This document shows, one piece after another, positions 17,854-60,470 of a DNA stretch of 64,000 nt; positions within the stretch are counted from its first letter, which is position 1; the number at the start of each line of letters is the position of its first letter. The stretch comes from Paenibacillus amylolyticus (GTDB lineage: Bacteria > Bacillota > Bacilli > Paenibacillales > Paenibacillaceae), in contig NZ_BCNV01000005.1 in NCBI RefSeq assembly GCF_001570725.1, positions 682,001-746,000 on the forward strand, given 5' to 3'. The notes under the pieces are model-generated. The model was not told where the DNA came from, ran no database searches, and was given only the letters and a program-made list of their open reading frames with translations. A program made the position numbers and the translations under genes.

Positions 17854-17860
17854 GATAAAG

Positions 17861-18622: not shown

Positions 18623-18741
18623 AAACAGGTAATTACGAGATAAATGCTTGTTTTTGCTAGAAATTGAGGATGGCTTTTCGGGTGGGATCGGCGTATAATT
18701 CATTCCGGATTACATGTGTGCCACTCCATGAAAACAGAAGC

Positions 18742-18891: not shown

Positions 18892-18995
18892 AAGATTTTT
18901 CATCAAAAGTGACTAACAAATATTTTTATATATAAAAAGAGATCAGGGGATTTATAATTTCGTACAGGTATTATAATTGGGGGTCGAATGTTCAA

Positions 18996-43709: not shown

Positions 43710-45599
43710 ATGAAAGTTGCCTTATATGTGTGCCGTGTAGGGGAAGGGTGGAGCATGGCCTTGTCTCTCGATATTCGAGTGGACGTAAATTGGTGGCTAG
43801 AGGGCGGAAGTGGTCGGCATGTGCTGCGCTGGTTGTTGTTAGATGCGGTGGTGTCGTTAAGTCAGGCATCTTGGTTGGTTGAGCATTTTGAGATGGAGCG
43901 GGACATGGATCACTGGGGTGAGCGCGAATGGCAGAGCTATCTTGCGCGGAAGCTGGATGTATATGAACTGGCTTCGGGGGAAGTTGAGGCGAGAAAAGGT
44001 ATAGCAGGCAAAGCGGGGAGTAGCGCTGCGCATCGCATTCAGGTAGGCGGGATGCCCGAGCCGTATCCCGCCGGGCAGTGGGCTCAGCTGGAGCGGGACG
44101 CGGCCCTGCTGGCTGAGCGGATCAGCGGCCGCCAACTGCTGGCGGCCGAGGCGGAGGCGTTGCTGGCGGATACCGCCCAGCCGCCTAGGGAGTGGCGCGC
44201 GGCTGCACAGCTCGCGCGCTTGCACGGGCGGCTGAGTATCACAGCCGCCCTCGAAGGGCCCGCCACGCGCCGTCGGCACGCGTGGCTTGGACGCGCGCGG
44301 AGCGCGCCCCGCTGCCACCGTTGTGGCAGCGAAGCCAGGCAGCGCGTGCCCTGCGCTGCCTGCGGCCTGGCGGCGTGCGCCTACTGCGAGGCTTGCCTCG
44401 CGCTAGGGCGCAGCCGTGCCTGTGCGCTGCTGCTACGCAGTGCAGCGCAAGGGGACGTGCCACGACGCGGCGAAGCACCGCGTGGCACGGCCTTGGCCCC
44501 CACCGGCGGCGGGCTCGCCCGGTGGGGGCTTAGCGCAGCGCAGAGCGCGGCAGCAGCCGCGGCGCTTGCGTTTTTGGCCCGGCCACCCGCAGGGGATGGG
44601 CCGGGGCGGTTCTTGCTGTGGGCCGTGACCGGGGCCGGCAAGACCGAGATGATTTTCCCCTTGCTCCAACATACATTGGATCGTGGTGGACGAGCTTTGG
44701 TCGCTACGCCACGCAGGGACGTGGTGTTGGAACTGGCTCCGCGACTAGCCAAAGCTTTTCCGGACACTTCGCTCGCTACCCTTTACGGAGGCAGTGACGA
44801 ACGCTGGAAAGACGCGCAGCTTACGCTCGCGACCACGCATCAATTGATGCGTTTTTATCAGGGATTTGATCTCGTCATTATCGATGAATTGGATGCTTTC
44901 CCCTATCATAACGATCCCATGCTCGCTCACGCGGCGGCATCCTCCTGTAAACCGGAGGGGAATTTTGTCTATCTGTCTGCTACACCGCCAGCTCGGCTCC
45001 AGAGGGAAGCAGCACAGGGGAAACTAACTCATGCCAAAGTCCCGGTACGTTTTCACCGTCATCCTTTGCCCGTACCAAGACTAATCAAGATGGTTACCGT
45101 TGCTGAATGTATTAAGAAACGAAATCTTCCTTCTGCCTTGAAGACTAACATCCAGATTTCATTGGAGCGTGACGCCCAGGTATTTGTGTTTGTGACACGT
45201 ATTGCCCAAATTGAGGCGTTTGTGAACCTGATGCGTCGTACCTTTCCAGGGATCCATATCGAAGGAACTTCATCTCAGGACCCTGATCGAGCTAGCAAAG
45301 TTATAGCCTTTCGTGATCGCAACATTCGTTTGCTCGTAACGACAACGATTCTGGAGCGTGGCGTGACCATTCCGCGCAGCGATGTCTTTATATTGGATGC
45401 AGACAATGGTCTCTTTGATGAAGCTTCACTCGTTCAGATGGCGGGCAGAGCAGGGCGTTCCATGGATGACCCGGCGGGTAGAGTGGTTTTTGCATCATCT
45501 CGTCGGACACGTTCTCAGGTGAAGGCCGTTGCACAGATCCGGAAAATGAACACGATCGCTCGTCGCAAAGGCTACCTGCATCCACCATCCCAGACATAA
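43710..45599 (+). CDS. comFA: Competence DNA helicase/translocase ComFA
   Basis: DEAD-box-like ATPase on the cytoplasmic side of the membrane that helps pull single-stranded DNA through the ComEC channel during transformation. The 629 residues include an N-terminal region of about 195 residues, a Cys cluster (Cys 202, 205, 215, 218, 223, 226: CHRC, CAAC, CAYC) that should bind zinc, Walker A AVTGAGKTE with Lys 311, Walker B VIIDELDAF at about 389-397, and the helicase C-terminal motif QMAGRAGRS. GGGAGGAG lies 9 bases before the ATG. The segment encoding residues about 115-300 is far richer in G+C and Ala than the rest. Longer than B. subtilis ComFA (463) because of the N-terminal part. Confidence 0.92.
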   Translation: MKVALYVCRVGEGWSMALSLDIRVDVNWWLEGGSGRHVLRWLLLDAVVSLSQASWLVEHFEMERDMDHWGEREWQSYLARKLDVYELASGEVEARKGIAGKAGSSAAHRIQVGGMPEPYPAGQWAQLERDAALLAERISGRQLLAAEAEALLADTAQPPREWRAAAQLARLHGRLSITAALEGPATRRRHAWLGRARSAPRCHRCGSEARQRVPCAACGLAACAYCEACLALGRSRACALLLRSAAQGDVPRRGEAPRGTALAPTGGGLARWGLSAAQSAAAAAALAFLARPPAGDGPGRFLLWAVTGAGKTEMIFPLLQHTLDRGGRALVATPRRDVVLELAPRLAKAFPDTSLATLYGGSDERWKDAQLTLATTHQLMRFYQGFDLVIIDELDAFPYHNDPMLAHAAASSCKPEGNFVYLSATPPARLQREAAQGKLTHAKVPVRFHRHPLPVPRLIKMVTVAECIKKRNLPSALKTNIQISLERDAQVFVFVTRIAQIEAFVNLMRRTFPGIHIEGTSSQDPDRASKVIAFRDRNIRLLVTTTILERGVTIPRSDVFILDADNGLFDEASLVQMAGRAGRSMDDPAGRVVFASSRRTRSQVKAVAQIRKMNTIARRKGYLHPPSQT

Positions 45600-45655
45600 T
45601 TGTCATCTGCCAAGTTTGGTTCCACATTTCAAAATATATTCCCAAGACTGGAGAT

Positions 45656-46663
45656 ATGCCCCTTATGTTCAATTGGCTCAGCAACATAACCGATCATGCA
45701 CAGCACCTGACCCGGCGTCTTCATCACCTGCTCGCCCCACCGGGAGCGACTTGTCTGACATGCGGCACTCGAGCGATTCTGTCTTCAATCTATCCGGGCA
45801 TATGCCCGCGTTGTATGAAGCAGATTCCATGGATTCGTTCCATCCGCTGTTTGCGTTGTGGTAGGGGTGTCGGTTGTCCGGACTGTGCTCGTCTACACAT
45901 GCAAAACCGATCTTTTATCTCCAATCGCAGCGCCGTACAATACAATGCTCTTATGAAAGAATGGATAGGCATGTACAAATTCCGAGGCCACGAAAGATAC
46001 GCGCCGCTCCTAACCGCTTTGTTGATTCAAGCCTTTCAAGCGATGAGTGAGGAGCAGAATTCTGCTTTGGCAAAAGAACCCCCAGCCCCCGTGGCTCATC
46101 CCGCCACACTTGCTCAAAAATCGGTGGATGTCAGCTCACATCCACCCCACCCGCGCGCGTCAACCAACGCGCACGCCCATCCCAGAGCAGCAACTCAACG
46201 CCCTCTGTCGCCGCCTCTGCAAACGAAGCCCCAGTGGCGGCCTGACGTGGTCACCTATGTTCCCGTGAGCAGCGAGCGCCTGGCCGAGCGCGGCTTCAAT
46301 CAGGCGGAGCGGCTGGCTGCTGGGCTCGCCACCGCCTTCCGCCTGCCCATCGTGGATCTGTTGCAGCGCCAGATCAACACGACCAAACAAAGCTTCAAAT
46401 CACGCGGTGAGCGTATCGAAACGATGAAGAACGCTTTTTCCATCAACCGAGATGGTATGCAGTTAATTGAAGAGCTATACAGGGGATTTCATCTGCCAAC
46501 ACAAAAGGCCATGTCACATGCCAAACCCATACAGATCCTGCTAATCGATGATATATACACAACAGGTAGCACCTTGGACGCTTGTGGACGGGTTATTCTA
46601 AATGCTGGCTTCTCCATGGATCTTCCGGTCGAGATTTTCACACTGACACTGGCAAGATCGTAG
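45656..46663 (+). CDS. comFC: ComFC, phosphoribosyltransferase-like competence protein
   Basis: Cytoplasmic partner of ComFA in DNA uptake, with a phosphoribosyltransferase fold. The 335 residues have an N-terminal zinc-ribbon region (CLTCGT, CPRCMK, CLRCGRGVGCPDC), then YKFRGHERYA, then VSSERLAERGFNQAERLA and the PRPP-binding loop ILLIDDIYTTGSTLDACG. The usual length is about 230-250. The excess is largely a Pro/Ala/His insertion at about 140-195 (nucleotides 46073-46240). The ATG at 45656 has a short GGAG just upstream; ATG 45665 is an alternative. It follows comFA after 56 bases. The separate comFB gene of Bacillus is absent here. Confidence 0.92.
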   Translation: MPLMFNWLSNITDHAQHLTRRLHHLLAPPGATCLTCGTRAILSSIYPGICPRCMKQIPWIRSIRCLRCGRGVGCPDCARLHMQNRSFISNRSAVQYNALMKEWIGMYKFRGHERYAPLLTALLIQAFQAMSEEQNSALAKEPPAPVAHPATLAQKSVDVSSHPPHPRASTNAHAHPRAATQRPLSPPLQTKPQWRPDVVTYVPVSSERLAERGFNQAERLAAGLATAFRLPIVDLLQRQINTTKQSFKSRGERIETMKNAFSINRDGMQLIEELYRGFHLPTQKAMSHAKPIQILLIDDIYTTGSTLDACGRVILNAGFSMDLPVEIFTLTLARS

Positions 46664-46968
46664 TAGTTAAATCCAAATAATGAATGACGGTTCAGCATTC
46701 TTCAGACACTCTAGGCGGGGAATTTATACATTATGATTAATAGTAGACAGGAAAATATGTTCTTTTATTAATGATAGGTATATTTGTGCGGTTCTCCTTT
46801 CCATTTATACCGTTTGCAATATGGTTGTTTGAAGAAATTATGAATGAAAGCGTTATAAGAAAATTTTAACATGTAAAAAAGAGGAATTGCTTTTCTCGCG
46901 CAGAATAGATAGTTTTGCCGTTCAGCACAGGGAGTGGCACATCATATCTTTTAAAGGGGAGAACAAAA
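46664..46968. other. Intergenic region between comFC and the FN3 protein
   Basis: A+T-rich, no gene and no strong terminator or promoter seen. The frame of the next gene is open back to 46915 but without a ribosome binding site. Confidence 0.4.
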
Positions 46969-49900
46969 GTGGTCGCAGGAAAAAGAAAAAACGGATTTTA
47001 CTTATGGACTGTCCGTCTACTAGTATTCATGCTGGTAATCGGACAGTTTGGCGTGTACGGGGGGAACCGGGCACATGCCGCAATAGGAAGCGGGATAGTC
47101 TCATCAAGTAATGATTACCAATATGTGTTGACTAACAACAACGGCCAACTACAAGTGAACCAAAAATCAGTTAAACTGAGTTGGGCGAGATCATACGAGA
47201 TTTCAACATCAGGATATTCTTTTAGGAGAAGTCAATCGATCAATGGGGCAGTTGAGGATATAACCAAGATTTCATTTGGCTCCTACACATCTACTTATAC
47301 CGGCAAAGTTACCAATGCCTTTATCATCGACTTTGGTGAGGTATGGGAGTATTACACGACTATGGAATACAGACAATCTGGAACCAATGTTGGGGTATGG
47401 AAATCTTCCACCGTTGATGAGTTTGGAATAACCACGCCAAGATATGTGCAAAGCTATGAGGCTACACAGTTAAGTCTTGTGATTAACGCAGATACAGGTG
47501 CGGTAGTAGATTTTGTATCTAACCTGAATCCGTATTACATACGGAAAGCAGAATCATTCAGTTTTGTAAAAGAGCCGGGGACAACACAGCCTATTACTAC
47601 GGTTCCAGCTGTTCCAACTAATTTAGCGGCTGACGCCAGTGATGTAGCGATTAATCTCGATTGGTCTGCTGCTCCACAAGCTGTCCAATATGAGATTGAA
47701 GAGAATGGCGTAGTCCAAGGGCCTTTTTACGGAATCAATTATACAAGTTCTTCGCTTACACCAAATACTACATACACCTATAGAGTACGTGGAATTAACC
47801 GACTAGGAGCTAGTGAGTGGAGTGAGTCGGTTGCATTAACTACCTTGCTTGAGAAACCCGTTTTGGCCGTAACGGCAGAGGAAGGAAAGAATACGATTCA
47901 GTGGAATGGGGTTGAGTTTGCAGATCGCTACCAGTTGCAGGTTGATGGTGGTACACCTATTGAATTAGGAAACGTAACTTCTTATGTACATGAAGGGCTT
48001 GAAGCTAATTCAACGCATACCTATGTGCTAAAAGCCTTCTCTGCTAACAATGAGAGTGCGTGGAGTAAAATGGTGAGCCAGTTAACAGTACCTGACCGTG
48101 CGGACGGGTTGAAGGTTACTGATGCTACATTTAATAAACTAACCGTAGCTTGGACTGCTGTAAAGGGTGCTACCGGATATGATTTGGAGATTGATGGCAC
48201 TAATGTTGCTGTAACCGGCACCACATATAGTAAAACTGGGCTTACAGCCAATACAGAGTATACCTTTAGAATTAGACCTAAAAATGCTGGTGGTGCAGGA
48301 AACTGGAGTGATATAACTACAGGTATTACCCAGATGAGTACACCCATTATTCAGTCCAACCCTTCACAAGAAGAAGTTGTTCTCATCTGGTCACCAGTTG
48401 AGGGTGCAACGTCATATGAAGTTGAGGCTGATGGTGTTGTCGTTGGGGATATAACAGATTCAATCTATACGCACACGGGGCTCAAACCTGGAACAGCACA
48501 TAAGTATCGTGTACGTGCTATAAGTGATAATAACGTTAGCGCATGGTCGACAGTAAAATCACAAAATACATTACCTGATTCCGTTAATGGATTAGTGATT
48601 AGTGCATCAACCAATGCAGCTATTACTCTGAAGTGGACAGCAGTAACCGGAGCCACAGGTTATGACCTTGAGATCGATGGAACAGTTGTCCCCGTAACAG
48701 GAGTAACCTACACGAAGAGTGGTCTCGCAGCCAATACAGATCATACTTTCCGTATTCGCTCGAAAAATGCCGCTGGTGTAGGGGCTTGGAGCGAACTCAT
48801 CAATGGAACGACACTCCTAAATACACCCGTACTAAAAGCAACATCGGAAGAAACTGCAGTCAACCTCACCTGGGCTGATGTAGCAGACGCAACAAAATAT
48901 GAGATTGAGGCGGATGGAGCAGTAGTGGCAACAGTAGAAGAACCTAACTACAGCCATACATCATTGTTACCAGGAACGGCGCATAAGTATCGCATTCGTG
49001 CGTTGACGGAGACGAATACAAGTGCATGGACAGCAATCCTGACGCAGAGCACGATCCCTGCCTCCGTTACAGGATTAACCGTTAGCTCGGCTACGAACGT
49101 AGCCATTGCATTGAAATGGACAGCAGTGACGGGAGCTACGGGATATGATCTGGAAATCGATGGTACCGTTGTCCCAGTAACGGGAGTAGCTTATACGAAG
49201 AGCGGTCTTACAGCGAACACAGACCATACTTTCCGTATTCGTTCGAAAAATGCCGCCGGTGCAGGGGCATGGAGTGATCTGATCAGCGGAGTAACGCTAT
49301 TGAACACACCTGTCTTGAAAGCAACATCGGAAGAAACTGCAGTCAACCTCACCTGGGCTGGTATAGCAGACGCAACAAAGTATGAGATTGAGGCGGATGG
49401 AGCAGTAGTGGCAACGGTAGAAGAGCCTAGTTATAGCCATGCAGCACTGCTGCCAGGAACAGCCCATAAGTATCGCATTCGTGCGTTGACGGAGACGAAT
49501 ACAAGTGCATGGACAGCAATCCTGACGCAGAGCACGATCCCTGCCTCTGTTACAGGATTAACCTTTAACTCGGCTACGAACGTAGCCATTGCTTTGAAAT
49601 GGACAGCAGTTACTGGAGCAACCGGATATGACCTTGAGATCGATGGTACCGTTGTACCAGTAACGGGAGTAGCCTATACCAAGAGTGGTCTTGCAGCCAA
49701 TACAGACCATACTTTCCGTATTCGTTCGAAGAATGCTGCCGGTGTAGGGGCTTGGAGCGAACTTATCAATGCAACGACACTTCTAAATACACCGGTATTG
49801 AAAGCAACGTCGGAAGAAACTGCAATCAACTTAACTTGGGCAGCTATTCCTGATGCAACGAAGTATGAGATTGAGGCGGATGGAGTAGTAGTGGCAACGG

Positions 49901-51963
49901 TAGAAGAGCCGAGCTATAGTCACATAGGACAGTTGCCAGGAACAGCGCATAAGTATCGTATTCGTGCGATGACAGATACCAATACGAGTGCATGGACAGC
50001 AATCCTGACGCAGAGCACGATCCCTGCCTCTGTTACAGGATTAACGGTTAACTCGGCTACTAACGTAGCCATTGCTTTGAAATGGACAGCAGTGACGGGA
50101 GCAACGGGATATGATCTGGAGATCGATGGTACGGTTGTCCCAGTAACGGGAGTAGCCTATACCAAGAGTGGTCTTGCAGCCAATACAGACCATACTTTCC
50201 GTATTCGTTCGAAGAATGCTGCCGGTGTAGGGGCTTGGAGCGAACTTATCAATGCAACGACACTTCTAAATACACCGGTATTGAAAGCAACGTCGGAAGA
50301 AACTGCAATCAACTTAACTTGGGCAGCTATTCCTGATGCAACGAAGTATGAGCTTGAGGCTGATGGAGTAGTAGTGGCAACGGTAGAAGAGCCAAGCTAT
50401 AGTCACATAGGACAGTTACCAGGAACGGCGCATAAGTATCGCATTCGTGCGTTGACGGAGACGAATACAAGTGCATGGACAGCAATCCTGACGCAGAGCA
50501 CGATCCCTGCCTCCGTTACAGGATTAACCGTTAGCTCGGCTACGAACGTAGCCATTGCATTGAAATGGACAGCAGTGACGGGAGCTACGGGATATGATCT
50601 GGAAATCGATGGTACCGTTGTCCCAGTAACGGGAGTAGCTTATACGAAGAGTGGTCTTGGAGCAAACACAGATCACACTTTCCGTATCCGCTCGAAAAAT
50701 ACCGCTGGTGTAGGGGCATGGAGTGACTTGATCAGTGGAACGACACTCCTAAATACACCCGTACTAAAAGCAACATCGGAAGAAACTGCAGTCAACCTCA
50801 CATGGGCTGATATAGCAGACGCAACAAAGTATGAGATTGAGGCTGATGGAGCAATAGTAGCAACAGTAGAAGAACCTAGTTTTAGCCATGCAGCATTGCT
50901 GCCAGGAACGGCGCATAAGTATCGCATTCGTGCGTTGGCGGAGACGAATACAAGTGCATGGACAGCAGTGCTGACGCAAAGCACGATCCCTGCTACAGTT
51001 AACGGTTTCGTGCTAAATACCGCTACACCTGTTGCCATCTCAATGAAATGGAGCCCTGTTACAGGCGCTACCGCTTACGATTTGGAAATTGACGGTGTTG
51101 TGATTTCTGTGAGTGGATCTGCTTATACAAAAAGTGGTCTTCTAGCCAATACAGATCATACCTTCCGCATCCGTGCCAAAAATGCTGCTGGCATGGGTAG
51201 CTGGAGTGAGATCGTAACTGCTTCGACCCAGTTGAATGTACCCACAACGCTGAAAGGTGTACCTGAAGAAACGGCAGTTACGCTGACATGGAATGAAGTT
51301 GCTGGTGCAACAAAATATGAGATTGAGGCAGATGGTATAGTAGTTGCTACGGTGAGTGATCTCATGTATGTACACAATGGAGTGCTTGGTGGAACGATTC
51401 ATAAATATCGTGTTCGTGCCCTGACCGACACCAATGTGAGTGCATGGACAGCAGTGTTGTCTCAAACTACGTTACCTGCGAGTGTCTCAGGCTTGAGTAT
51501 TAACTCTGCAACCACAGCGGCGATCGCGCTAAGATGGAGTGCTGTAACTGGAGCTACCGGTTATGACCTAGAGATTGATGGTACGGTAGTAGCCGTGAGT
51601 GGAGTTGCTTATACGAAGAGCGGACTTGCACCAAATACGGAGCATACCTTCCGTATTCGTGCCAAAAATGCTTCCGGTGCGGGAGCTTGGAGTGAGATCT
51701 TAACGGGAACGACTCAATTAACTACAGCTGTGCTGAAAGGAACTTCGGACAGAACGAATGTTATTCTGACGTGGGACGCGGTTGTGGGAGCTTCATCTTA
51801 CGAAATTGAAGCCGATGGACAAATCGTGGCAACGGTTAGTGATACAACTTTTATTCATTCAGATCTGTTACCGTCCAGTTTGCATAAATATCGTATCAGA
51901 GCATTCAATGACCAGAACACAAGCGTGTGGTCTGCTGTACTAAACATTAGAACATTGAATTAA
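46969..51963 (+). CDS. Giant secreted protein of about 18 fibronectin type III modules
   Basis: From GTG 46969 (AGGGGAG at 46955-46961, 7 bases upstream) the product has 1664 residues. A signal peptide ends near NRAHA (about residue 37). Residues 38-200 are a unique N-terminal domain with many Ser/Tyr. From about 210 to the C terminus there are about 18 fibronectin type III-like modules in nine alternating pairs: type A (KWTAVTGATGYDLEIDGT...HTFRIR) and type B (LTWADVADATKYEIEADG...HKYRIRA). No enzyme domain, SLH, LPXTG or lipobox was seen. The gene interrupts the usual comFC-yvyF junction. A role in adhesion or as a spacer is plausible but not shown. Confidence 0.85.
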   Translation: MVAGKRKNGFYLWTVRLLVFMLVIGQFGVYGGNRAHAAIGSGIVSSSNDYQYVLTNNNGQLQVNQKSVKLSWARSYEISTSGYSFRRSQSINGAVEDITKISFGSYTSTYTGKVTNAFIIDFGEVWEYYTTMEYRQSGTNVGVWKSSTVDEFGITTPRYVQSYEATQLSLVINADTGAVVDFVSNLNPYYIRKAESFSFVKEPGTTQPITTVPAVPTNLAADASDVAINLDWSAAPQAVQYEIEENGVVQGPFYGINYTSSSLTPNTTYTYRVRGINRLGASEWSESVALTTLLEKPVLAVTAEEGKNTIQWNGVEFADRYQLQVDGGTPIELGNVTSYVHEGLEANSTHTYVLKAFSANNESAWSKMVSQLTVPDRADGLKVTDATFNKLTVAWTAVKGATGYDLEIDGTNVAVTGTTYSKTGLTANTEYTFRIRPKNAGGAGNWSDITTGITQMSTPIIQSNPSQEEVVLIWSPVEGATSYEVEADGVVVGDITDSIYTHTGLKPGTAHKYRVRAISDNNVSAWSTVKSQNTLPDSVNGLVISASTNAAITLKWTAVTGATGYDLEIDGTVVPVTGVTYTKSGLAANTDHTFRIRSKNAAGVGAWSELINGTTLLNTPVLKATSEETAVNLTWADVADATKYEIEADGAVVATVEEPNYSHTSLLPGTAHKYRIRALTETNTSAWTAILTQSTIPASVTGLTVSSATNVAIALKWTAVTGATGYDLEIDGTVVPVTGVAYTKSGLTANTDHTFRIRSKNAAGAGAWSDLISGVTLLNTPVLKATSEETAVNLTWAGIADATKYEIEADGAVVATVEEPSYSHAALLPGTAHKYRIRALTETNTSAWTAILTQSTIPASVTGLTFNSATNVAIALKWTAVTGATGYDLEIDGTVVPVTGVAYTKSGLAANTDHTFRIRSKNAAGVGAWSELINATTLLNTPVLKATSEETAINLTWAAIPDATKYEIEADGVVVATVEEPSYSHIGQLPGTAHKYRIRAMTDTNTSAWTAILTQSTIPASVTGLTVNSATNVAIALKWTAVTGATGYDLEIDGTVVPVTGVAYTKSGLAANTDHTFRIRSKNAAGVGAWSELINATTLLNTPVLKATSEETAINLTWAAIPDATKYELEADGVVVATVEEPSYSHIGQLPGTAHKYRIRALTETNTSAWTAILTQSTIPASVTGLTVSSATNVAIALKWTAVTGATGYDLEIDGTVVPVTGVAYTKSGLGANTDHTFRIRSKNTAGVGAWSDLISGTTLLNTPVLKATSEETAVNLTWADIADATKYEIEADGAIVATVEEPSFSHAALLPGTAHKYRIRALAETNTSAWTAVLTQSTIPATVNGFVLNTATPVAISMKWSPVTGATAYDLEIDGVVISVSGSAYTKSGLLANTDHTFRIRAKNAAGMGSWSEIVTASTQLNVPTTLKGVPEETAVTLTWNEVAGATKYEIEADGIVVATVSDLMYVHNGVLGGTIHKYRVRALTDTNVSAWTAVLSQTTLPASVSGLSINSATTAAIALRWSAVTGATGYDLEIDGTVVAVSGVAYTKSGLAPNTEHTFRIRAKNASGAGAWSEILTGTTQLTTAVLKGTSDRTNVILTWDAVVGASSYEIEADGQIVATVSDTTFIHSDLLPSSLHKYRIRAFNDQNTSVWSAVLNIRTLN
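48568..50982 (+). repeat. Five tandem 483-bp units inside the FN3 gene
   Basis: Equivalent bases of the pair-to-pair junction fall at 48568, 49051, 49534, 50017, 50500 and 50983, each exactly 483 bases (161 residues, one A+B pair) apart. The units from 49051 to 50982 are nearly identical over long stretches. The pairs before and after are more diverged and slightly different in length (486 to the next junction at 51469). Confidence 0.9.
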
Positions 51964-51972
51964 TGAATTAAA

Positions 51973-52020
51973 GTGGGGGAACGGGCTTGCGTATATATGC
52001 ATCCTGCTCCCCTCTTTTGT
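51973..52020 (+). terminator. Probable terminator after the FN3 gene
   Basis: GGGGA (51976-51980) with TCCCC (52008-52012), extended by GGG with the TCC just inside, then CTCTTTTGTTTT. The loop is large, so this is less certain than the others. Confidence 0.5.
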
Positions 52021-52113
52021 TTTGTAAATAGACTATGGCTTCATCAGAGAAAATAAGGTAATGTATAGTTATTATCTATTCGGAAATGGAAGTTTGAGAG
52101 GGGCGTTTTAGCG

Positions 52114-52518
52114 ATGAATCTAGGTAATTGTCCTCGCTGTGGTAAATTATATGCGTTGAATTTTCGAGATGTATGCTCGAACTGTATCAAGGAAATAGAG
52201 CAGGAATATCAGATCTGTGTAGATTATTTGCGCGAAAACAAGGGCACCAACATACAGGAACTATCCGATGCAACAGAAGTTTCAATTAAAAACATTACCA
52301 AGTTCATCCGTGAGGGACGAATTTCCATCGAGAACGCCCCGAATATGATGTATCCTTGTGAAGTATGCGGAACGTTGATTCGTGAAGGTCATATGTGTGA
52401 CTCTTGCCGTAATCGTTTAACGAAAGACTTGGCAGGGGCAGCTCGTGAAGTAGGTCAGAAGGATAACAACAATGTAGGCGGACGAACCTACAATGCTGTC
52501 GACAAACTACGCGATTAA
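52114..52518 (+). CDS. yvyF: Flagellar operon protein YvyF (TIGR03826-like)
   Basis: Small cytoplasmic protein of 134 residues found upstream of flgM in Bacillales; function not established. Two Cys pairs near the N terminus (CPRCGKLYAL, CSNC) and two near residue 80-97 (CEVCGTLIREGHMCDSC) look like zinc ribbons, with a helix-turn-helix-like stretch between them (NIQELSDATEVSIKNITKFI). This pattern suggests a regulator that senses or binds DNA or protein, but that is inference. GAGAGGGG lies about 12 bases before the ATG. Gene order identifies it as the B. subtilis yvyF counterpart. A terminator separates it from flgM. Confidence 0.87.
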   Translation: MNLGNCPRCGKLYALNFRDVCSNCIKEIEQEYQICVDYLRENKGTNIQELSDATEVSIKNITKFIREGRISIENAPNMMYPCEVCGTLIREGHMCDSCRNRLTKDLAGAAREVGQKDNNNVGGRTYNAVDKLRD

Positions 52519-52570
52519 TAGGAGCGAGGGCTCAAATACATGTTTTGCTATAACAAATGTTTTGAAACGT

Positions 52571-52606
52571 ACCGATAAACTTATTAAAGATTATCGGTTT
52601 TTTTTA
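52571..52606 (+). terminator. Terminator between yvyF and flgM
   Basis: ACCGATAA (52571-52578) with TTATCGGT (52591-52598), 12-base loop, then nine T. Confidence 0.8.
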
Positions 52607-52694
52607 TTATCCTAATTATTTTGATAACATAAAGATAAAGTAAGAAAAACGTATATCGTCGTAAAAACCTTATGTGGAAGGAAGTGCAAGTTAA

Positions 52695-52979
52695 ATGAAA
52701 ATCAATGAACCGAGTAGAATTGGCGCCATCAATTCATATCAAAGGAACGTTGAATCCAATCAGCAGGCTGATGCCAAGAAGAGCCGCCGTAAGGACGAAG
52801 TATCTATTTCTCCGGAGGCGATGAAGATGCTTGAGGAACAAAGTCGTACACAGGATGCAGGACGCGTACAACGAATACAGGAACTGAAAGAACAGGTGAG
52901 TTCCGGAACGTATCAGGTAGATAGTAGCAAGCTTGCTGATAAGTTGCTACCGTATTTTAAGTCTTTTGATAAGGAATAG
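52695..52979 (+). CDS. flgM: Anti-sigma-D factor FlgM
   Basis: Cytoplasmic inhibitor that holds the motility sigma factor until the hook-basal body is complete. The 94 residues show the family pattern: MKINEPSRIGAINSYQ at the N terminus, DEVSISPEAMKMLEE in the middle, and a C-terminal helix with VSSGTYQVDSSKLADKLL that binds sigma. GGAAGGAAGTG precedes the ATG. It heads a close run flgM-flgN-flgK-flgL-DUF6470-fliW-csrA with short gaps (11, 19, 22, 15, 92 and 2 bases), so one operon is likely. I could not find a convincing sigma-D promoter just upstream. Confidence 0.93.
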   Translation: MKINEPSRIGAINSYQRNVESNQQADAKKSRRKDEVSISPEAMKMLEEQSRTQDAGRVQRIQELKEQVSSGTYQVDSSKLADKLLPYFKSFDKE

Positions 52980-52990
52980 GTGATCACGTA

Positions 52991-53494
52991 ATGGCAGCAC
53001 TGGACAGATTAATTGCAGTTTTGCAGCAAATGGAACAAAGTCACCGCGATATGCTGGCACTCAGCGAGGTCAAGAGACAGGTCATTGTCAAAAACGATGT
53101 GGATGAACTCATTGCCGTTCTGAACAAAGAATCCCGTTTCATGAAACAACAGGAGCCATTGGAGATCGAACGGCAGAGCGCAGTTCACGAACTGCTTCAA
53201 GAACGTGGAATTAAGTCCATGTTGAACCTGAATATTACCGAGATTTCCAAGCTGATTTTTGATCCGGCTGACAAACAGCGATTGCTCGAAGTCCAGAAGA
53301 AGCTAGCGGGAACACTACATGAATTAAAAGAAATTAATCAACTGAATCAAAAGCTGATCGAGCAATCGTTGATGTTTATTGATCTTTCAATGGACATTTT
53401 TGCTTCTCGGCCAGAACAGGATGCCACATATCAGCATCCTGCTGATAAGAACGGTAATCCAGGGCGAATCGGTCTGTTTGACACGCGTGCCTGA
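52991..53494 (+). CDS. flgN: Flagellar export chaperone FlgN
   Basis: Cytoplasmic chaperone that guards the hook-associated proteins FlgK and FlgL before export. The 167 residues are almost entirely helical, with charged heptads such as NDVDELIAVLNKESRFMKQQ and KRQRLLEVQKKLAGT-like stretches, and no hydrophobic segment. Sequence identity alone would be weak, but the place between flgM and flgK is the known position of flgN (yvyG). AGGTGATC precedes the ATG by about 5 bases. The C-terminal 25 residues are Pro/Asn/Gly-rich and likely flexible. Confidence 0.9.
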   Translation: MAALDRLIAVLQQMEQSHRDMLALSEVKRQVIVKNDVDELIAVLNKESRFMKQQEPLEIERQSAVHELLQERGIKSMLNLNITEISKLIFDPADKQRLLEVQKKLAGTLHELKEINQLNQKLIEQSLMFIDLSMDIFASRPEQDATYQHPADKNGNPGRIGLFDTRA

Positions 53495-53513
53495 TTAATT
53501 AGGGGGAAACCAG

Positions 53514-55070
53514 GTGACATCTACATTTCATTCAATCGAAACGGCTAAACGCAGTTTGTTCACACAGACGACAGCTCTTAGCACAACAGGCCATAACGTA
53601 GCCAATGCCAACACGGAAGGTTACTCACGTCAAAAGGTAAACATGCAGGCATCCATTCCAATGGAGCCGTTTGCATTTTTGCATAGTACAACACCAGGAC
53701 AACTCGGTACAGGTGTAGAATTCAACTCCATTACACGTGTACGCGAGAAATTTCTGGATGACCAGTATCGCAATGAGAATACCAACTTCGGGAGTTGGTC
53801 CATTCAACGAGATACACTTGAGAAACTTGAAGCTATTGTAAACGAACCATCAAACACTGGTTTTCGAACCGTTATGGATAATTTCTACAAATCATGGTCA
53901 GACCTGAGTAAAAATCCTGAGGATGTTACAGCACGGCGGATCGTAAAAGAAACGACGTTGGCTCTGACCGATGCGATGAATCAGATTAGCCGCCAACTAG
54001 ATGCACTCAGTCAGGATCTGGACAGTAACATCGCTGTGAAAAGCAATGAGATCCAGGGCTACCTTGGTAACATTGCGAACCTTAATAGTGCTATTGTAAA
54101 AGTCGAATCTCTAGGCGACAATGCCAATGATTTACGTGACCAACGTGATCTGATGACAGACAAGCTGTCCAAAATTATGAACGTTACCGTTACGGATTCT
54201 CCGCAAGGATACCAGGTTCAGATGAATGGACAGGCACTCGTCACTGGCGGGGCGGTACAAGTTGCGATAGATCCTGCTTTTCTGAATGCTGCGTATACAG
54301 CAGGCACGCTCACCAACGGCGAGGTCCACGGCATGATCAAGTCCAGAGACACTTTGGTAAGTGATTATCAGAAACAAATGGATGACTTAGCTAATACGCT
54401 TGCCAACGGTGATATTGAGATCACCCTTCCTGCGGGTTCTATCTTGCCAGATAATACTGTTCTGGATGGTGTTACATACACGGGTGCAGCACGGACGCTT
54501 GCAACTGATCTGAAAGTTACGGTAAAGGGTCTGAACGGTTTGCATCAACTCGGATACAGCATGGACGGTACTACGTCACCGGGCGTACCTTTCTTCACGG
54601 CATCTGGTGGTGGGACGGCAATCACAGCAGGAAATATTTCATTAAATGCGGCGATTCTAGCCGATCCAAATAAGATTGCAACCTCTTTGCGTACAACTAC
54701 CGATTCTTCGGGGACAGAAACGGTAATCAAAGGGAATAATACGCTGGCGAATCTGCTTGCCAATCTTAAAGATACACCGATGAAGTCAGCTGATGGTTTA
54801 CGTAATGCACCCATTGGTGCTCAGTTCAGTGCTATCGTTGGACAGTTGGGTGTTCAATCTCAGGAAGCGGCTCGTCAGACTTCCAATTCAGAGTTTCTCG
54901 TAGAACAGGTCGATACTCGGCGTCAATCTGTTAGCGGCGTATCTTTAGATGAGGAAATGGCTAATATGATTAAATTTCAGCATGCTTATAGTGCGTCCGC
55001 CCGGTTTATGACCACATTTGACCAATTGTTAGATAAATTGATCAATTCTACTGGTGTTGTAGGTAGATAG
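53514..55070 (+). CDS. flgK: Flagellar hook-associated protein 1, FlgK
   Basis: Junction protein between hook and filament. The 518 residues begin with TFHSIETAKRSLFTQTTALS and the rod/hook signature TTGHNVANANTEGYSRQKV, and end with VSLDEEMANMIKFQHAYSAS and the conserved helix RFMTTFDQLLDKLINSTGVV. The start is GTG at 53514 with AGGGGGAAA at 53501-53509. The middle (about 240-430) contains the variable domain. FlgN upstream is its chaperone. Confidence 0.96.
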   Translation: MTSTFHSIETAKRSLFTQTTALSTTGHNVANANTEGYSRQKVNMQASIPMEPFAFLHSTTPGQLGTGVEFNSITRVREKFLDDQYRNENTNFGSWSIQRDTLEKLEAIVNEPSNTGFRTVMDNFYKSWSDLSKNPEDVTARRIVKETTLALTDAMNQISRQLDALSQDLDSNIAVKSNEIQGYLGNIANLNSAIVKVESLGDNANDLRDQRDLMTDKLSKIMNVTVTDSPQGYQVQMNGQALVTGGAVQVAIDPAFLNAAYTAGTLTNGEVHGMIKSRDTLVSDYQKQMDDLANTLANGDIEITLPAGSILPDNTVLDGVTYTGAARTLATDLKVTVKGLNGLHQLGYSMDGTTSPGVPFFTASGGGTAITAGNISLNAAILADPNKIATSLRTTTDSSGTETVIKGNNTLANLLANLKDTPMKSADGLRNAPIGAQFSAIVGQLGVQSQEAARQTSNSEFLVEQVDTRRQSVSGVSLDEEMANMIKFQHAYSASARFMTTFDQLLDKLINSTGVVGR

Positions 55071-55092
55071 TAAAAAGGGGGAATAAAAGATC

Positions 55093-56013
55093 ATGAGAAT
55101 TACGAATAATATGCTCAGTTCACAGTTGATCATGAACCTCAATCGAAATGCTCAACAAATGAATAATACTCAGACGCAACTTGCTACAGGTCGGAAAATT
55201 AATAAACCATCAGATGACCCTGTAGGGATTACTTACTCCCTTCGATATCGTGCAGAATTATCGTCAAATGAGCAGTATCAGAAAAATGTAGATAGTACCA
55301 TCTCCTGGCTAGATTTTAATGATACTGTTCTGGATCAGGCAGGAAGCGTTGTCCAACGGTTAAGAGAGTTGACGGTACAAGCTTCTACCGGAACAAACCC
55401 CCAGTCTGCTCTTGATAGCATTAATGAGGAAGTTAAGCAACTTAAGGAGCAACTTATAGATATTTCAAATAGTAAGCTCAACGGTAAGTATATTTTTAAC
55501 GGGGAGACTTATGATATCAAACCATATGATTTCCCCAGAAATGCAGATGGGACACTTGACACAACAAATGCAGATGCGATTGTCACAGATAAAGGTAAAA
55601 TCAACTTTATTGTTGGAGAAAGTGTTCAATTGCCCATTAATACTACCGGGAATGAAGTGTTTGGTGATTCAACAGAACCTGACAACCTTTTTGTTATTTT
55701 GAACACCATTATGCAGGCGCTGACGGATGGTGATCAGCAAGAGTTGTCCAATCAACTTGATAACATAGACAGTCGTACAGACAAAGTGTTAGCAATTCGT
55801 TCTGAAATCGGTGCGAAGACCAATCGTGTTGAGCTTATGATGGGACGTTTGGATGACCTTGGTGTAAATCTCAGTGAACTGCAAGCTAAAGTGGAAGATG
55901 CGGACTATGCTGAACTGGCAATAAAATCAAAGATTCAGGAAAACATATACAATGCTTCCTTATCAACAGGAGCTAAGATCATTTCTCCATCTTTGGTAGA
56001 CTTCTTGAGATAA
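55093..56013 (+). CDS. flgL: Flagellar hook-associated protein 3, FlgL
   Basis: Second junction protein, on which the first flagellins polymerise. The 306 residues have a flagellin-like N terminus (MRITNNMLSSQLIMNLNRNA, LATGRKINKPSDDPVGITYS) and C terminus (YAELAIKSKIQENIYNASLS). AAAAGGGGG lies about 12 bases before the ATG. Its arrangement behind flgK is the Bacillus order. Confidence 0.95.
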   Translation: MRITNNMLSSQLIMNLNRNAQQMNNTQTQLATGRKINKPSDDPVGITYSLRYRAELSSNEQYQKNVDSTISWLDFNDTVLDQAGSVVQRLRELTVQASTGTNPQSALDSINEEVKQLKEQLIDISNSKLNGKYIFNGETYDIKPYDFPRNADGTLDTTNADAIVTDKGKINFIVGESVQLPINTTGNEVFGDSTEPDNLFVILNTIMQALTDGDQQELSNQLDNIDSRTDKVLAIRSEIGAKTNRVELMMGRLDDLGVNLSELQAKVEDADYAELAIKSKIQENIYNASLSTGAKIISPSLVDFLR

Positions 56014-56028
56014 AGGGAGTGGTTACAT

Positions 56029-56598
56029 TTGAGGACTCTTCCCATCGTTCAAATTAAAACAACACCTTCTGTGTTGCATATTGATGCTGATCTGGGTCAA
56101 CAATCCATTCGCCAGCCTAAGGCTGAGCTTCAAATGAGCACGACACCTGCCAAATTCATAGTGGAGAGTCATCCGATCAAACTAGATGTGGATCAAAGTA
56201 AAGCATTTGCGGCGTATACTGGTGGTAGTATGTTTGAAATGAATTCTAGGATATACTCAGGATTTCAGCAGCAATTTTTGCGAAATATGGCTGAGCGAGT
56301 TGAGCAAGGAAATCAATTAGCTGCCATTCATAGGCCGGGTAACACGATAGCGAATATTGTCGGTACAAATTGGCAGGCGAAACCTTTTCCAGAGACTAGA
56401 GCACCAGCATCTTATGACAATGTTGATATAAGAATTGAGACTAGAGCACCAGACGTTCGTTTTGAGTCGGCTGTATCCAATTTAAACGTCATAGTGAACA
56501 GGCCGGAGATTGAATATCAACGAGGCAAGTTGGACATTTACGTTAAGCAGTATGCTTCTATACAGTTTACTCCACCTGCTATAGATATGGGACTATAA
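56029..56598 (+). CDS. DUF6470 (YviE-like) protein
   Basis: A 189-residue protein of the family found between flgL and fliW in Bacillales; its role is unknown. It shows short repeated beta-hairpin phrases with P-x-E or P-x-V-x-F motifs (QPKAELQMSTTPAKFIVESH, RAPDVRFESAVSNLNVIVNR, RPEIEYQRGKLDIYV) and no signal peptide or membrane segment. The start is TTG at 56029 with AGGGAGTGG at 56014-56022. Co-transcription with the flagellar operon suggests a motility role; a structural or export-accessory function is conjecture. Confidence 0.85.
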   Translation: MRTLPIVQIKTTPSVLHIDADLGQQSIRQPKAELQMSTTPAKFIVESHPIKLDVDQSKAFAAYTGGSMFEMNSRIYSGFQQQFLRNMAERVEQGNQLAAIHRPGNTIANIVGTNWQAKPFPETRAPASYDNVDIRIETRAPDVRFESAVSNLNVIVNRPEIEYQRGKLDIYVKQYASIQFTPPAIDMGL

Positions 56599-56690
56599 AG
56601 GTAATAGGTTATAATAGGCTATAGACGGTTATGTTCGACATCCGCTATAGCTTTTTTTTGTACAAAACTGCTGCCAAGGAGGCGTTTGAT

Positions 56691-57134
56691 ATTTTAATTA
56701 GAACTAGTATGTTAGGTGAAATCGATGTATCTCTAGAGGACGTATATCATTTTGAAAAGGGGTTGCCTGGATTTGAGCAGGAGAATGATTTTGCATTAAT
56801 TCCATGGGAAGGAACTCCTTTTAGCTATCTTCAATCTATAAACGACTCAGAAATTTCATTTTTAATCGTTAGTCCGTTTGAGTTTAAGACAGACTATAGT
56901 TTTGAGTTGAGTAATGAGGACAAAGATGAGCTGAAACTTGAAGAAAAGGTAGGAGTATACGCCATTGTGACTATTCATTCGGAAACAGTAAAATCAACTA
57001 TGAATTTGTTGGCACCGCTTGTGATGAATCCCGTTACTCTAAAAGGCAAACAAGTTGTGCTTCACCAATCCGGATATGAAACTAGACATCGGATCTGGTC
57101 AAATAACCTGCAATCGGTGAAAGGCGGGAATTAA
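56691..57134 (+). CDS. fliW: Flagellar assembly factor FliW, probable ATT start
   Basis: Binds flagellin and, when flagellin is exported, binds and blocks CsrA, closing a feedback loop on flagellin translation. The 147 residues contain the family signatures VYHFEKGLPGFEQE, LIVSPFEFKTDY, and the C-terminal GKQVVLHQSGYETRHRI. The Shine-Dalgarno AAGGAGG (56676-56682) is 8 bases before ATT 56691, which gives the family N terminus (MLIRTSMLGEIDV). The first in-frame ATG (56709) is 26 bases from it and has no Shine-Dalgarno of its own; the frame upstream of 56691 is open but has no start with a ribosome binding site. csrA starts 2 bases after the stop. Confidence 0.92.
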   Translation: MLIRTSMLGEIDVSLEDVYHFEKGLPGFEQENDFALIPWEGTPFSYLQSINDSEISFLIVSPFEFKTDYSFELSNEDKDELKLEEKVGVYAIVTIHSETVKSTMNLLAPLVMNPVTLKGKQVVLHQSGYETRHRIWSNNLQSVKGGN

Positions 57135-57136
57135 CT

Positions 57137-57382
57137 ATGCTAGTACTGTCACGAAAAAGAGGAGAATCCATTATTATTCAGGATAACATTGAGGTGACTG
57201 TGCTTGCAGTGGATGGAGACACCGTGAGGATCGGAATCTCGGCGCCGAATCATGTGGATATCTTTCGTCAAGAATTGTACGTTTCCATTCAGGAAGCCAA
57301 TCGTGAGTCTACAGCTCCGCCCGTATCTGACGTGGAAGCATTTATGCAGTTTGTTCGTGATACTAAAGAGAAAGATAAATAG
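57137..57382 (+). CDS. csrA: Carbon storage regulator CsrA
   Basis: Small dimeric RNA-binding protein that represses flagellin translation by binding GGA motifs in the leader. The 81 residues have the family N terminus MLVLSRKRGESIIIQD, with Arg 6 and the C-terminal strand VRIGISAPNHVDIFRQELY that form the RNA site, and a C-terminal extension of about 20 residues. AAAGGCGGG precedes the ATG and overlaps the end of fliW, so the pair is translationally coupled. The targets are directly downstream. Confidence 0.95.
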   Translation: MLVLSRKRGESIIIQDNIEVTVLAVDGDTVRIGISAPNHVDIFRQELYVSIQEANRESTAPPVSDVEAFMQFVRDTKEKDK

Positions 57383-57401
57383 AGAATAATCTATTCAGCT
57401 A

Positions 57402-57428
57402 TAATAGTTTTTGTTTATCTGACGATAT
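57402..57428 (+). promoter_or_regulatory. Sigma-D promoter of flagellin gene 1
   Basis: TAAT (57402-57405), 15-base spacer, GACGATAT (57421-57428), one mismatch in each box against TAAA / GCCGATAT. Confidence 0.72.
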
Positions 57429-57481
57429 ATAGTATAGACGTTGTTTCAGGAGGGCGGCCGACCTTAATGTAGCGACGTTTA

Positions 57482-57519
57482 CCACAAGGATGTGGAACTA
57501 ACTTATTTCAGGGAGGAAA
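57482..57519 (+). promoter_or_regulatory. CsrA-binding leader of flagellin gene 1
   Basis: Hairpin CCACA-AGGA-TGTGG (57482-57495) presents GGA in a 4-base loop, matching the CsrA SELEX-type consensus ACARGGAUGU. A second GGA lies in CAGGGAGGAAA (57509-57519), which is also the Shine-Dalgarno. This leader alone has another GGA in CAGGAGGGC near 57447. Confidence 0.8.
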
Positions 57520-57525
57520 CACTCA

Positions 57526-58341
57526 ATGATTATCAACCACAATATTGCTGCAATGAACACTCATCGTCAACTGAACACCAACACAACTAACACGAACAAA
57601 GCGATCGAAAAATTGTCTTCCGGACTGCGGATTAACCGCGCTGGTGACGATGCTGCAGGATTGGCGATTTCCGAAAAAATGCGCGGACAAATCCGCGGTT
57701 TGGATATGGCTTCCAAAAATGCACAAGACGGTATCTCTTTGATTCAAACAGCTGAAGGCGCATTGAACGAAACACACAGCATTCTGCAACGTGTACGTGA
57801 ATTGTCTGTTCAATCGGCGAATGATACCAACACAGATGCAGACCGTGCAGAGCTTCAAAAAGAAGTTACACAACTGACAGCTGAAATTGATCGTATCTCG
57901 ACAACAACTGAATTCAATACGAAGAAATTGTTGGATGGTGCTGGTGCAAGTGCTGTAGTATTCCATATCGGAGCTAACACAGGTCAAAGCATTACGTTGA
58001 ACATTGGGAACATGGGATCCGGTTCCCTGGGTGTTGGGTCAGTTGCCATTGGTACTCAAACAGGTGCGAACGCTGCAATCGCTACTTTGGATACAGCAAT
58101 CGCGTCGGTATCTGCTGAACGTTCCAAATTGGGTGCAAACCAAAACCGTTTGGAGCACACCATCAACAACTTGGGAACGACTTCTGAAAACCTGTCTGCT
58201 GCGGAATCCCGTGTTCGTGACGTAGACATGGCGAAAGAAATGATGAACCAAACGAAAAACAACATCCTTGCACAAGCTTCACAAGCGATGTTGGCGCAAG
58301 CTAACCAACAGCCACAAGCTGTACTGCAATTACTTCGTTAA
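57526..58341 (+). CDS. hag: Flagellin, copy 1
   Basis: Filament subunit exported through the flagellum. The 271 residues have the D0/D1 N terminus MIINHNIAAMNTHRQLN and SGLRINRAGDDAAGLAISEK and the C-terminal helix NILAQASQAMLAQANQQPQA ending in VLQLLR. The central surface-exposed domain is small, as in Bacillus-type short flagellins. It is expressed from a sigma-D promoter and carries a CsrA-binding leader. It differs from copies 2 and 3 mainly in residues about 100-120 and 162-180. Confidence 0.97.
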   Translation: MIINHNIAAMNTHRQLNTNTTNTNKAIEKLSSGLRINRAGDDAAGLAISEKMRGQIRGLDMASKNAQDGISLIQTAEGALNETHSILQRVRELSVQSANDTNTDADRAELQKEVTQLTAEIDRISTTTEFNTKKLLDGAGASAVVFHIGANTGQSITLNIGNMGSGSLGVGSVAIGTQTGANAAIATLDTAIASVSAERSKLGANQNRLEHTINNLGTTSENLSAAESRVRDVDMAKEMMNQTKNNILAQASQAMLAQANQQPQAVLQLLR

Positions 58342-58351
58342 TCTTTATATT

Positions 58352-58390
58352 AGAAGAACCTTTGGGCTCCCAAAGGTTCTTCTGTTTTTC
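58352..58390 (+). terminator. Terminator of flagellin gene 1
   Basis: Perfect 15-bp stem AGAAGAACCTTTGGG (58352-58366) with CCCAAAGGTTCTTCT (58369-58383), in practice with a slightly larger loop, then GTTTTT. Confidence 0.92.
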
Positions 58391-58455
58391 AGTCCAACTA
58401 ACTTGGATCTCAGAAGAGAGATCACCAAAAAAATAAAAATAAAAACATTTTACTA

Positions 58456-58483
58456 TAAAAAGTATTGTTGTTTCTGTCGATAT
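58456..58483 (+). promoter_or_regulatory. Sigma-D promoter of flagellin gene 2
   Basis: TAAA (58456-58459), 16-base spacer, GTCGATAT (58476-58483). Nearly the same bases recur before copy 3. Confidence 0.75.
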
Positions 58484-58537
58484 ATAAAGTAAGATGTTGC
58501 ACTGATAGGTATTCCAGCCTTAACGTTGTAACGTTTA

Positions 58538-58575
58538 CCACAAGGATGTGGAACTAACTTATTTCAGGGAGGAAA
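58538..58575 (+). promoter_or_regulatory. CsrA-binding leader of flagellin gene 2
   Basis: Same hairpin CCACA-AGGA-TGTGG (58538-58551) and same GGA over the Shine-Dalgarno (58565-58575) as copy 1. Confidence 0.8.
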
Positions 58576-58581
58576 CACTCA

Positions 58582-59397
58582 ATGATTATCAACCACAATA
58601 TTGCTGCGATGAACACTCATCGCCAACTGAACACCAACACAACAAACACAAACAAAGCGATCGAAAAATTGTCTTCCGGTCTGCGGATCAACCGCGCTGG
58701 TGACGATGCTGCAGGATTGGCGATTTCCGAAAAAATGCGCGGACAAATCCGCGGTTTGGATATGGCTTCCAAAAATGCACAAGACGGTATCTCTTTGATT
58801 CAAACAGCTGAGGGTGCATTGAACGAAACACACAGCATTTTGCAACGTGTGCGTGAATTGTCTGTTCAATCGGCGAATGATACCAACACAGATGCAGACC
58901 GTGTTGAACTTCAAAAAGAAGTAACAGAACTGACTGCTGAGATTAACCGTATTTCGACAACGACAGAATTTAACACTAAAAAGCTTTTGGATGGTGCTGG
59001 TGCAAGTGCTGTAGTATTCCATATCGGGGCTAACACAGGTCAAAGCATTACACTGAATATCGGTAACATGGGAGCCAGTTCCCTAGGTATTGCATCAGTA
59101 GCTATTGGTACTCAATCAGGTGCGAATGCTGCAATTGCTACCTTGGATACAGCAATCGCATCCGTATCTGCTGAACGTTCCAAATTGGGTGCAAACCAAA
59201 ACCGTTTGGAGCACACCATCAACAACTTGGGAACGACTTCTGAGAACCTGTCTGCTGCGGAATCCCGTGTTCGTGACGTAGACATGGCGAAAGAAATGAT
59301 GAACCAAACGAAAAACAACATTCTTGCACAAGCTTCTCAAGCGATGTTGGCGCAAGCCAATCAACAGCCACAAGCTGTACTGCAATTGCTTCGTTAA
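58582..59397 (+). CDS. hag: Flagellin, copy 2
   Basis: Second 271-residue flagellin of the tandem set, with conserved N- and C-terminal coiled-coil regions identical to copy 1 over long stretches (both start MIINHNIAAMNTHR and end QQPQAVLQLLR). Substitutions are in the middle third, for example DADRVELQKEVTELTAEINR against copy 1. It has its own sigma-D promoter, CsrA-type leader and terminator, so each copy looks independently expressed. Whether all copies enter the filament or one dominates cannot be told from sequence. Confidence 0.97.
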   Translation: MIINHNIAAMNTHRQLNTNTTNTNKAIEKLSSGLRINRAGDDAAGLAISEKMRGQIRGLDMASKNAQDGISLIQTAEGALNETHSILQRVRELSVQSANDTNTDADRVELQKEVTELTAEINRISTTTEFNTKKLLDGAGASAVVFHIGANTGQSITLNIGNMGASSLGIASVAIGTQSGANAAIATLDTAIASVSAERSKLGANQNRLEHTINNLGTTSENLSAAESRVRDVDMAKEMMNQTKNNILAQASQAMLAQANQQPQAVLQLLR

Positions 59398-59408
59398 TCT
59401 TTATATTA

Positions 59409-59443
59409 GAAGAACCTTTGGACTTCCGAAGGTTCTTTTTTTA
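59409..59443 (+). terminator. Terminator of flagellin gene 2
   Basis: AGAACCTTTGG with CCGAAGGTTCT (one G-U pair) around 59410-59436, followed by T residues; clearly related to the terminator of copy 1. Confidence 0.88.
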
Positions 59444-59523
59444 TTTCAATTAACTTGGATTTCAAAAGAAACAGCACCAGACGTTACAAATTATAAAAAA
59501 ATAAAATAAAAATCATTTTACTA

Positions 59524-59551
59524 TAAAAAGTATTGAGGTTCCTGTCGATAT
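59524..59551 (+). promoter_or_regulatory. Sigma-D promoter of flagellin gene 3
   Basis: TAAA (59524-59527), 16-base spacer, GTCGATAT (59544-59551). Confidence 0.75.
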
Positions 59552-59604
59552 ATAAAGTAAGATGTTGCACTGATAGGTATTTAGTCTTAACATTGTAACG
59601 TTTA

Positions 59605-59642
59605 CCACAAGGATGTGGAACTAACTTATTTCAGGGAGGAAA
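59605..59642 (+). promoter_or_regulatory. CsrA-binding leader of flagellin gene 3
   Basis: Hairpin CCACA-AGGA-TGTGG (59605-59618) and GGA over the Shine-Dalgarno (59632-59642), as in the other two copies. Confidence 0.8.
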
Positions 59643-59648
59643 CACTCA

Positions 59649-60470
59649 ATGATTATCAACCACAATATTGCTGCGATGAACACTCATCGCCAACTGAACA
59701 CCAACACAACAAACACAAACAAAGCGATCGAAAAATTGTCTTCCGGTCTGCGGATCAACCGCGCTGGTGACGATGCTGCAGGATTGGCAATCTCAGAAAA
59801 AATGCGCGGACAAATCCGTGGTTTGGATATGGCTTCCAAAAATGCACAAGACGGTATCTCTTTGATTCAAACAGCTGAGGGCGCATTGAACGAAACACAC
59901 AGCATTCTGCAACGTATGCGTGAATTGTCTGTTCAATCGGCGAATGATACAAACACTAACGCTGACCGTGTGGAACTTCAAAAAGAAGTAACAGAACTGA
60001 CAGCAGAGATCGATCGTATCTCGACAACAACTGAGTTCAATACGAAGAAATTGTTGAATGGTGCTGGCGCAAGTGCTGTCGTATTCCATATCGGAGCTAA
60101 CACAGGCCAAAGCATTACGTTGAATATTGGCAACATGGGAGCTGGTTCCCTAGGCGTTGCTGCTGGATCTGTAAGTATTGCTTCTCAAACAGGTGCGAAC
60201 GCTGCAATCGCTACTTTGGATACAGCAATCGCGTCGGTATCTGCTGAACGTTCCAAATTGGGTGCAAACCAAAACCGTTTGGAGCACACCATCAACAACT
60301 TGGGAACGACTTCTGAAAACCTATCTGCTGCAGAATCCCGTGTTCGTGACGTAGACATGGCGAAAGAAATGATGAACCAAACGAAAAACAACATCCTTGC
60401 ACAAGCTTCACAAGCGATGTTGGCGCAAGCTAACCAACAGCCACAAGCTGTACTGCAATTGCTTCGTTAA
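59649..60470 (+). CDS. hag: Flagellin, copy 3
   Basis: Third flagellin of the tandem set, 273 residues. It has a two-residue insertion in the variable part (AGSLGVAAGSVSIASQTGAN against GSLGVGSVAIGTQTGAN in copy 1) and Met for Val in LQRMRELSV. The ends are as in the other copies. It has its own promoter, CsrA-type leader and an unrelated terminator. The following gene is a glycosyltransferase with a sigma-D promoter. Confidence 0.97.
   Translation: MIINHNIAAMNTHRQLNTNTTNTNKAIEKLSSGLRINRAGDDAAGLAISEKMRGQIRGLDMASKNAQDGISLIQTAEGALNETHSILQRMRELSVQSANDTNTNADRVELQKEVTELTAEIDRISTTTEFNTKKLLNGAGASAVVFHIGANTGQSITLNIGNMGAGSLGVAAGSVSIASQTGANAAIATLDTAIASVSAERSKLGANQNRLEHTINNLGTTSENLSAAESRVRDVDMAKEMMNQTKNNILAQASQAMLAQANQQPQAVLQLLR

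Follow-up and report, generated by a model that had tools for sequence, protein, structure and literature searches.

Few conserved non-canonical start codons are known outside infC. The ATT start of infC is established in E. coli, where IF3 discriminates against AUU and thereby controls its own synthesis (PMC5472188). In Streptomyces, sigR-rsrA starts with a GTC that is kept across species, and RsrA has its own ribosome-binding site, so the weak start sets the ratio of the two products (PMC5472188). In Staphylococcus, the conserved starts of cvfC1 (AUU) and ccpN (AUA) have been proven by ribosome profiling and reporters; non-canonical starts in S. aureus reporters reach ~10% of AUG with some context dependence, and the ccpN AUA reaches up to 30% in rich medium (PMC13009471). 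For the B. subtilis Hag-FliW-CsrA homeostasis system, the accessible part of the published study describes csrA translation as coupled to that of fliW at near-fixed stoichiometry, reports that a stop codon in fliW abolishes CsrA, leaves the limit on FliW-CsrA abundance to unidentified systems, and mentions neither an ATT start nor a CsrA site at fliW (PMC6529632). One CsrA site in B. subtilis overlaps the flagellin Shine-Dalgarno (PMC7652899).

Here we describe fliW in a 64,000-nucleotide stretch of the Paenibacillus amylolyticus genome (the window). Comparison of relatives indicates that, in one Paenibacillus clade, this gene is very probably translated from an AUU codon 8 bases past a strong Shine-Dalgarno. 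Like infC, fliW carries a conserved ATT after a strong Shine-Dalgarno, and does so within a genus whose infC, including that of the window's own genome, has a conserved ATT start with the same kind of spacing; infC is thus a built-in yardstick for the fliW codon. Unlike infC, fliW encodes a flagellar regulator and not IF3, so any effect of IF3 would run one way, without self-feedback. In fliW-csrA as in sigR-rsrA, the leading gene of a two-gene operon for antagonists has a non-canonical start conserved between species; the difference is that csrA follows fliW directly and is probably coupled to it. As with cvfC1 and ccpN, the start is a conserved non-canonical Firmicutes codon behind a strong Shine-Dalgarno, although those are other genes, the fliW start is supported by sequence comparison, and a CsrA-like hairpin is particular to fliW. 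With B. subtilis the window shares the fliW-csrA order. A literature search for fliW with AUU or another non-canonical start, which did not cover many subscription papers, found no description; we regard the apparent ATT start as an observation now confirmed and strengthened that is apparently unreported, its novelty not being proven. With a conserved AUU heading the first gene of a stoichiometric regulator pair, fliW-csrA lends itself to a direct test of whether start strength sets the absolute levels of a coupled operon, and the codon bears on what limits FliW-CsrA abundance. This start will probably be misplaced by gene finders that accept only ATG, GTG and TTG.

The fliW locus

Read 5' to 3', the locus consists of a DUF6470 gene (56029..56598, + strand; PF20074, E 1e-39), a terminator-like hairpin, fliW, csrA and three flagellin genes; flgL, recognised by its sequence, also lies upstream. 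The fliW coding sequence (56691..57134, +) spans 147 codons from the ATT and is single-copy in the genome. A profile search assigns the frame to FliW (PF02623, E 4e-36, 123.8 bits against a cut-off of 25), and its N terminus lines up with the FliW starts of relatives. The neighbourhood is that of the FliW family, with csrA (57137..57382, +; PF02599, E 4e-25) 2 bases past the fliW stop and the flagellin genes in tandem on the 3' side of csrA at 57526, 58582 and 59649. The three flagellin genes in 57526-60470 are nearly identical, each with the same Shine-Dalgarno hairpin.

An invariant ATT at the fliW start

The start region reads GCTGCC-AAGGAGG-CGTTTGAT-ATT-TTAATTAGAACTAGT-ATG. The Shine-Dalgarno AAGGAGG (56676..56682, +), read in the sequence and kept in the clade, is separated by 8 bases from the inferred ATT initiation codon (56691..56693, +) and by 26 from an ATG at 56709 in the same frame, a geometry already given correctly in the original prediction, which had proposed the ATT as the start.

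To place this codon among relatives, we extracted the start regions of the FliW loci present in 75 of 76 genus genomes (the window's genome counted) and added named records of P. amylolyticus, P. xylanilyticus, P. xylanexedens, P. taichungensis, P. xylanivorans, P. tundrae, P. polysaccharolyticus and others. One of the loci (L123) comes from a record labelled Paenibacillus polymyxa ISL-58; its fliW belongs to the amylolyticus/xylanexedens group, and the species name may be wrong. We define the ATT clade as the 34 genomes whose FliW is at least ~60% identical to that of the window; it comprises P. amylolyticus, P. xylanexedens and their kin. Aligning their starts, the check that the original prediction had proposed, places ATT at exactly the same codon in 29 of the 34, after a block close to GCCARGGAGGCGTTTNNN, and this comparison strongly supports the ATT start. 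The other five have ATG at or beside the codon: in L029 and L030 an ATG stands one codon upstream and the ATT is retained as the second codon, in L034 and L035 ATG occupies the codon itself, and in L033 it is adjacent. Sequences from outside the clade whose N terminus can be aligned mostly have TTG, GTG or ATG in this position. The ATT thus stands where the family starts, which bears out the earlier view that it yields the FliW family N terminus.

The codon is invariant in 29 of the 29 genomes counted, a count that excludes the two with ATG one codon upstream. The conserved isoleucine columns 37, 83, 95 and 135 vary among ATT, ATC and ATA, unlike the start ATT, and only 2 of the 52 conserved degenerate codons of FliW are invariant. 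Column 3, near the start, is also mostly ATT (26/29), and part of the invariance may therefore reflect selection for an A/T-rich start region. Spacing from the Shine-Dalgarno is fixed across the species represented by the 29 ATT genomes, and all 31 sequences measured have the same distance between the GGCG[C/T]T core and the ATT. In three members (L007, L009, L016) the frame contains no ATG, GTG or TTG from its last stop to the ATT, and the first downstream in-frame canonical codon is codon 55, 50 and 58, respectively, of about 146; starting there would cost one third of FliW, so a non-canonical start is forced in these three. Most clade members retain another in-frame start (a TTG 11 codons upstream or an ATG at codon 7). 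Many species have a second ATT at codon -1 and hence two candidate ATTs; codon -1 of the window is GAT.

Alternative readings of the start region

Two in-frame canonical codons lie 5' of the ATT, both missed by the original prediction: a TTG at 56658, on the T-run of the terminator-like hairpin, and an ATG at 56631, within that hairpin. Initiation at either would give an N-terminally extended FliW, a call that a gene finder limited to ATG, GTG and TTG could possibly make, and the frame is indeed open to -23 codons, with a TTG at -11 or -12 in many members. Both codons, however, lack a Shine-Dalgarno and are not conserved throughout the clade, and members L003, L007, L009, L011, L012, L015-L020 and L024 lack any upstream ATG, GTG or TTG. 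The distance from the terminator arm to the ATT falls in all three phases (19, 8 and 4 sequences), which indicates that the upstream frame is not coding, and relatives outside the clade begin at the ATT position; we consider an upstream start highly improbable. Initiation at ATG 56709 (Met7), with the ATT region as leader, is scarcely credible. That ATG occurs in the window and in roughly half of the clade, but it lies far from the only Shine-Dalgarno and is missing in L003, L005, L007, L009, L011, L012, L015-L017, L026, L028 and L032. Moreover, the predicted FliW structure places its first β-strand at residues 2-5 (mean pLDDT of 84 over the first ten residues) and the solved FliW structure 5dmb aligns from residue 3 onwards, making Met7 a poor start that would lose this strand along with the conserved I3, T5 and S6.

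Two further readings were considered. An ATT produced by sequencing error, or a fliW that is a pseudogene, can be given practically no weight: the same ATT recurs in 29 independent genomes, hence kept by evolution, and the 147-codon frame is intact with a conserved core. Sequencing error, which the original prediction had named together with relatives carrying ATG as what would overturn it, is on this ground excluded. More serious is the reading that the ATT is the start and yet selectively near-neutral, tolerated by a strong Shine-Dalgarno and devoid of a regulatory role. About two reversions to ATG and the interchange of TTG, GTG and ATG in outgroups fit such neutrality, whereas 29 genomes whose FliW differs by up to ~39% from that of the window have not drifted to TTG, GTG, ATC or ATA; we hold near-neutrality to be possible but on the whole unlikely.

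Origin and retention of the ATT codon

In a FliW tree that omits residues 1-8, the 34 genomes group as a single clade (support 100/99). The ATT label requires three changes, and the fewest-changes reconstruction fits one gain and two losses, although the number of losses is approximate because a gene of such length gives a tree with weak inner branches. This distribution suggests that ATT most likely replaced a canonical codon in a single event and has persisted since, with ATG regained about twice. A sample of 60 fliW loci from two other genera contains no ATT at the corresponding codon; those with an alignable N terminus have ATG, TTG or GTG there. A degenerate motif pattern search of 400 family genomes matched mostly in the ATT clade; the few matches elsewhere look like chance, since a reversed control also gave a few.

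Hairpins flanking the start

A hairpin with 4 bp in its stem, (C/T)GCC-[ARGGA]-GGCG, holds the fliW Shine-Dalgarno in its loop and is maintained across the clade; in the window this CsrA-site-like element reads TGCC-[AAGGA]-GGCG (56672..56684, +). The Shine-Dalgarno constrains the 3' arm but not the 5' arm, which is conserved all the same, with G, C and C in 26, 28 and 26 of 29 genomes. A loop GGA overlapping the Shine-Dalgarno, as in CsrA leaders, is found in 27 of 29 (L003 and L019 have lost it), and the stem pairs in nearly all rows. Changes within the stem are one-sided wobbles only, and the consensus fold contains no compensatory double changes. The ATG genomes L033-L035 have lost the hairpin too. 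Of 27 control Shine-Dalgarno sites in the window, only 5 have such a loop closed by a stem of at least 3 pairs. Three of the 5 are those of the flagellin genes, where 4 pairs enclose an AGGGA loop, among them the hairpin at 57506..57518 (+), built as at fliW. The leader of the first flagellin gene also contains CCACAAGGATGTGG (57482..57495, +), read in the sequence as a classical CsrA-type site, which resembles the known CsrA consensus. The fliW hairpin with its ARGGA loop is probably a CsrA site. An Rfam search of the fliW leader returned nothing relevant.

Between the DUF6470 gene and fliW lies an intrinsic-terminator-like hairpin with a T-run (56616..56659, +; stem 56616-56624 with 56645-56653), which ends ~16 bases before the fliW Shine-Dalgarno. 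Consensus folding found this hairpin, with two pairs changed on both sides; a terminator scanner missed it, probably because the loop exceeds the scanner limit of 8. Across genera of Paenibacillaceae (L036-L071, L225-L254), a T-run after a CTATAG-type stem recurs just 5' of fliW, and the recurrent stem and T-run could constitute an attenuator before fliW-csrA. A consensus promoter scan performed at chance level, and TATAAT-like strings before the terminator, considered as a promoter, are conserved too little to support a claim.

Level versus ratio in the fliW-csrA operon

The original prediction held that a weak start would limit FliW relative to CsrA. Across the clade, csrA begins 0-3 bases past the fliW stop (the automatic alignment places csrA of L020 one base off), and csrA is coupled to fliW in B. 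subtilis. Since csrA directly adjoins fliW and is probably coupled to it, a weak fliW start should lower both proteins, and control of the FliW:CsrA ratio is unlikely. A level-setting role with CsrA feedback appears the more likely of the two.

In the mechanism we propose, AUU would serve as the fliW initiation codon and the initiator tRNA would still place Met at residue 1. AUU would be expected to cut initiation several-fold and to make it sensitive to IF3, and IF3 control of fliW is plausible by analogy with what is known of infC, pcnB and sigR. The weak start would set a low level of both FliW and CsrA. If, as is probable, the Shine-Dalgarno hairpin with its ARGGA loop is a target of CsrA, any free CsrA would act as a repressor of the operon that encodes it; the chances of such CsrA feedback on fliW-csrA appear about even. 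The terminator-like hairpin would limit read-through from flgK-flgL-DUF6470. Taken together, we infer a layered restraint of the operon. Tentatively, and with more doubt than for the CsrA feedback taken singly, three stacked devices (a read-through terminator, a CsrA-sensing Shine-Dalgarno hairpin and an AUU start) might hold down fliW-csrA, such that CsrA would repress its own synthesis and that of its antagonist, and flagellin output would be tied to IF3 as well as to the cell's translational state.

Additional features of the window and related genomes

The flagellar part of the window (44001-58352) shares 76-83% DNA identity with a genome of the same species (G001), and FliW is 63% identical between the two, whereas positions 1-20000 share 97-99%. 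This disparity suggests that recombination brought in the flagellar region from another lineage; both alleles carry ATT. Besides infC, genomes of the genus generally encode a second IF3-like protein (IF3_N match of about 60-75 bits); in one genome this gene (L103, G000:C1:1432151-1434157) begins with ATG. An element of ~200 bp at 14361-14560 occurs in ~40 copies around the G001 genome at 80-91% identity, and a further diverged, inverted relative lies at 18743-18897 of the window. Positions 48629-50993 comprise a tandem array of a 483-bp unit in 4.9 copies with 88% matches.
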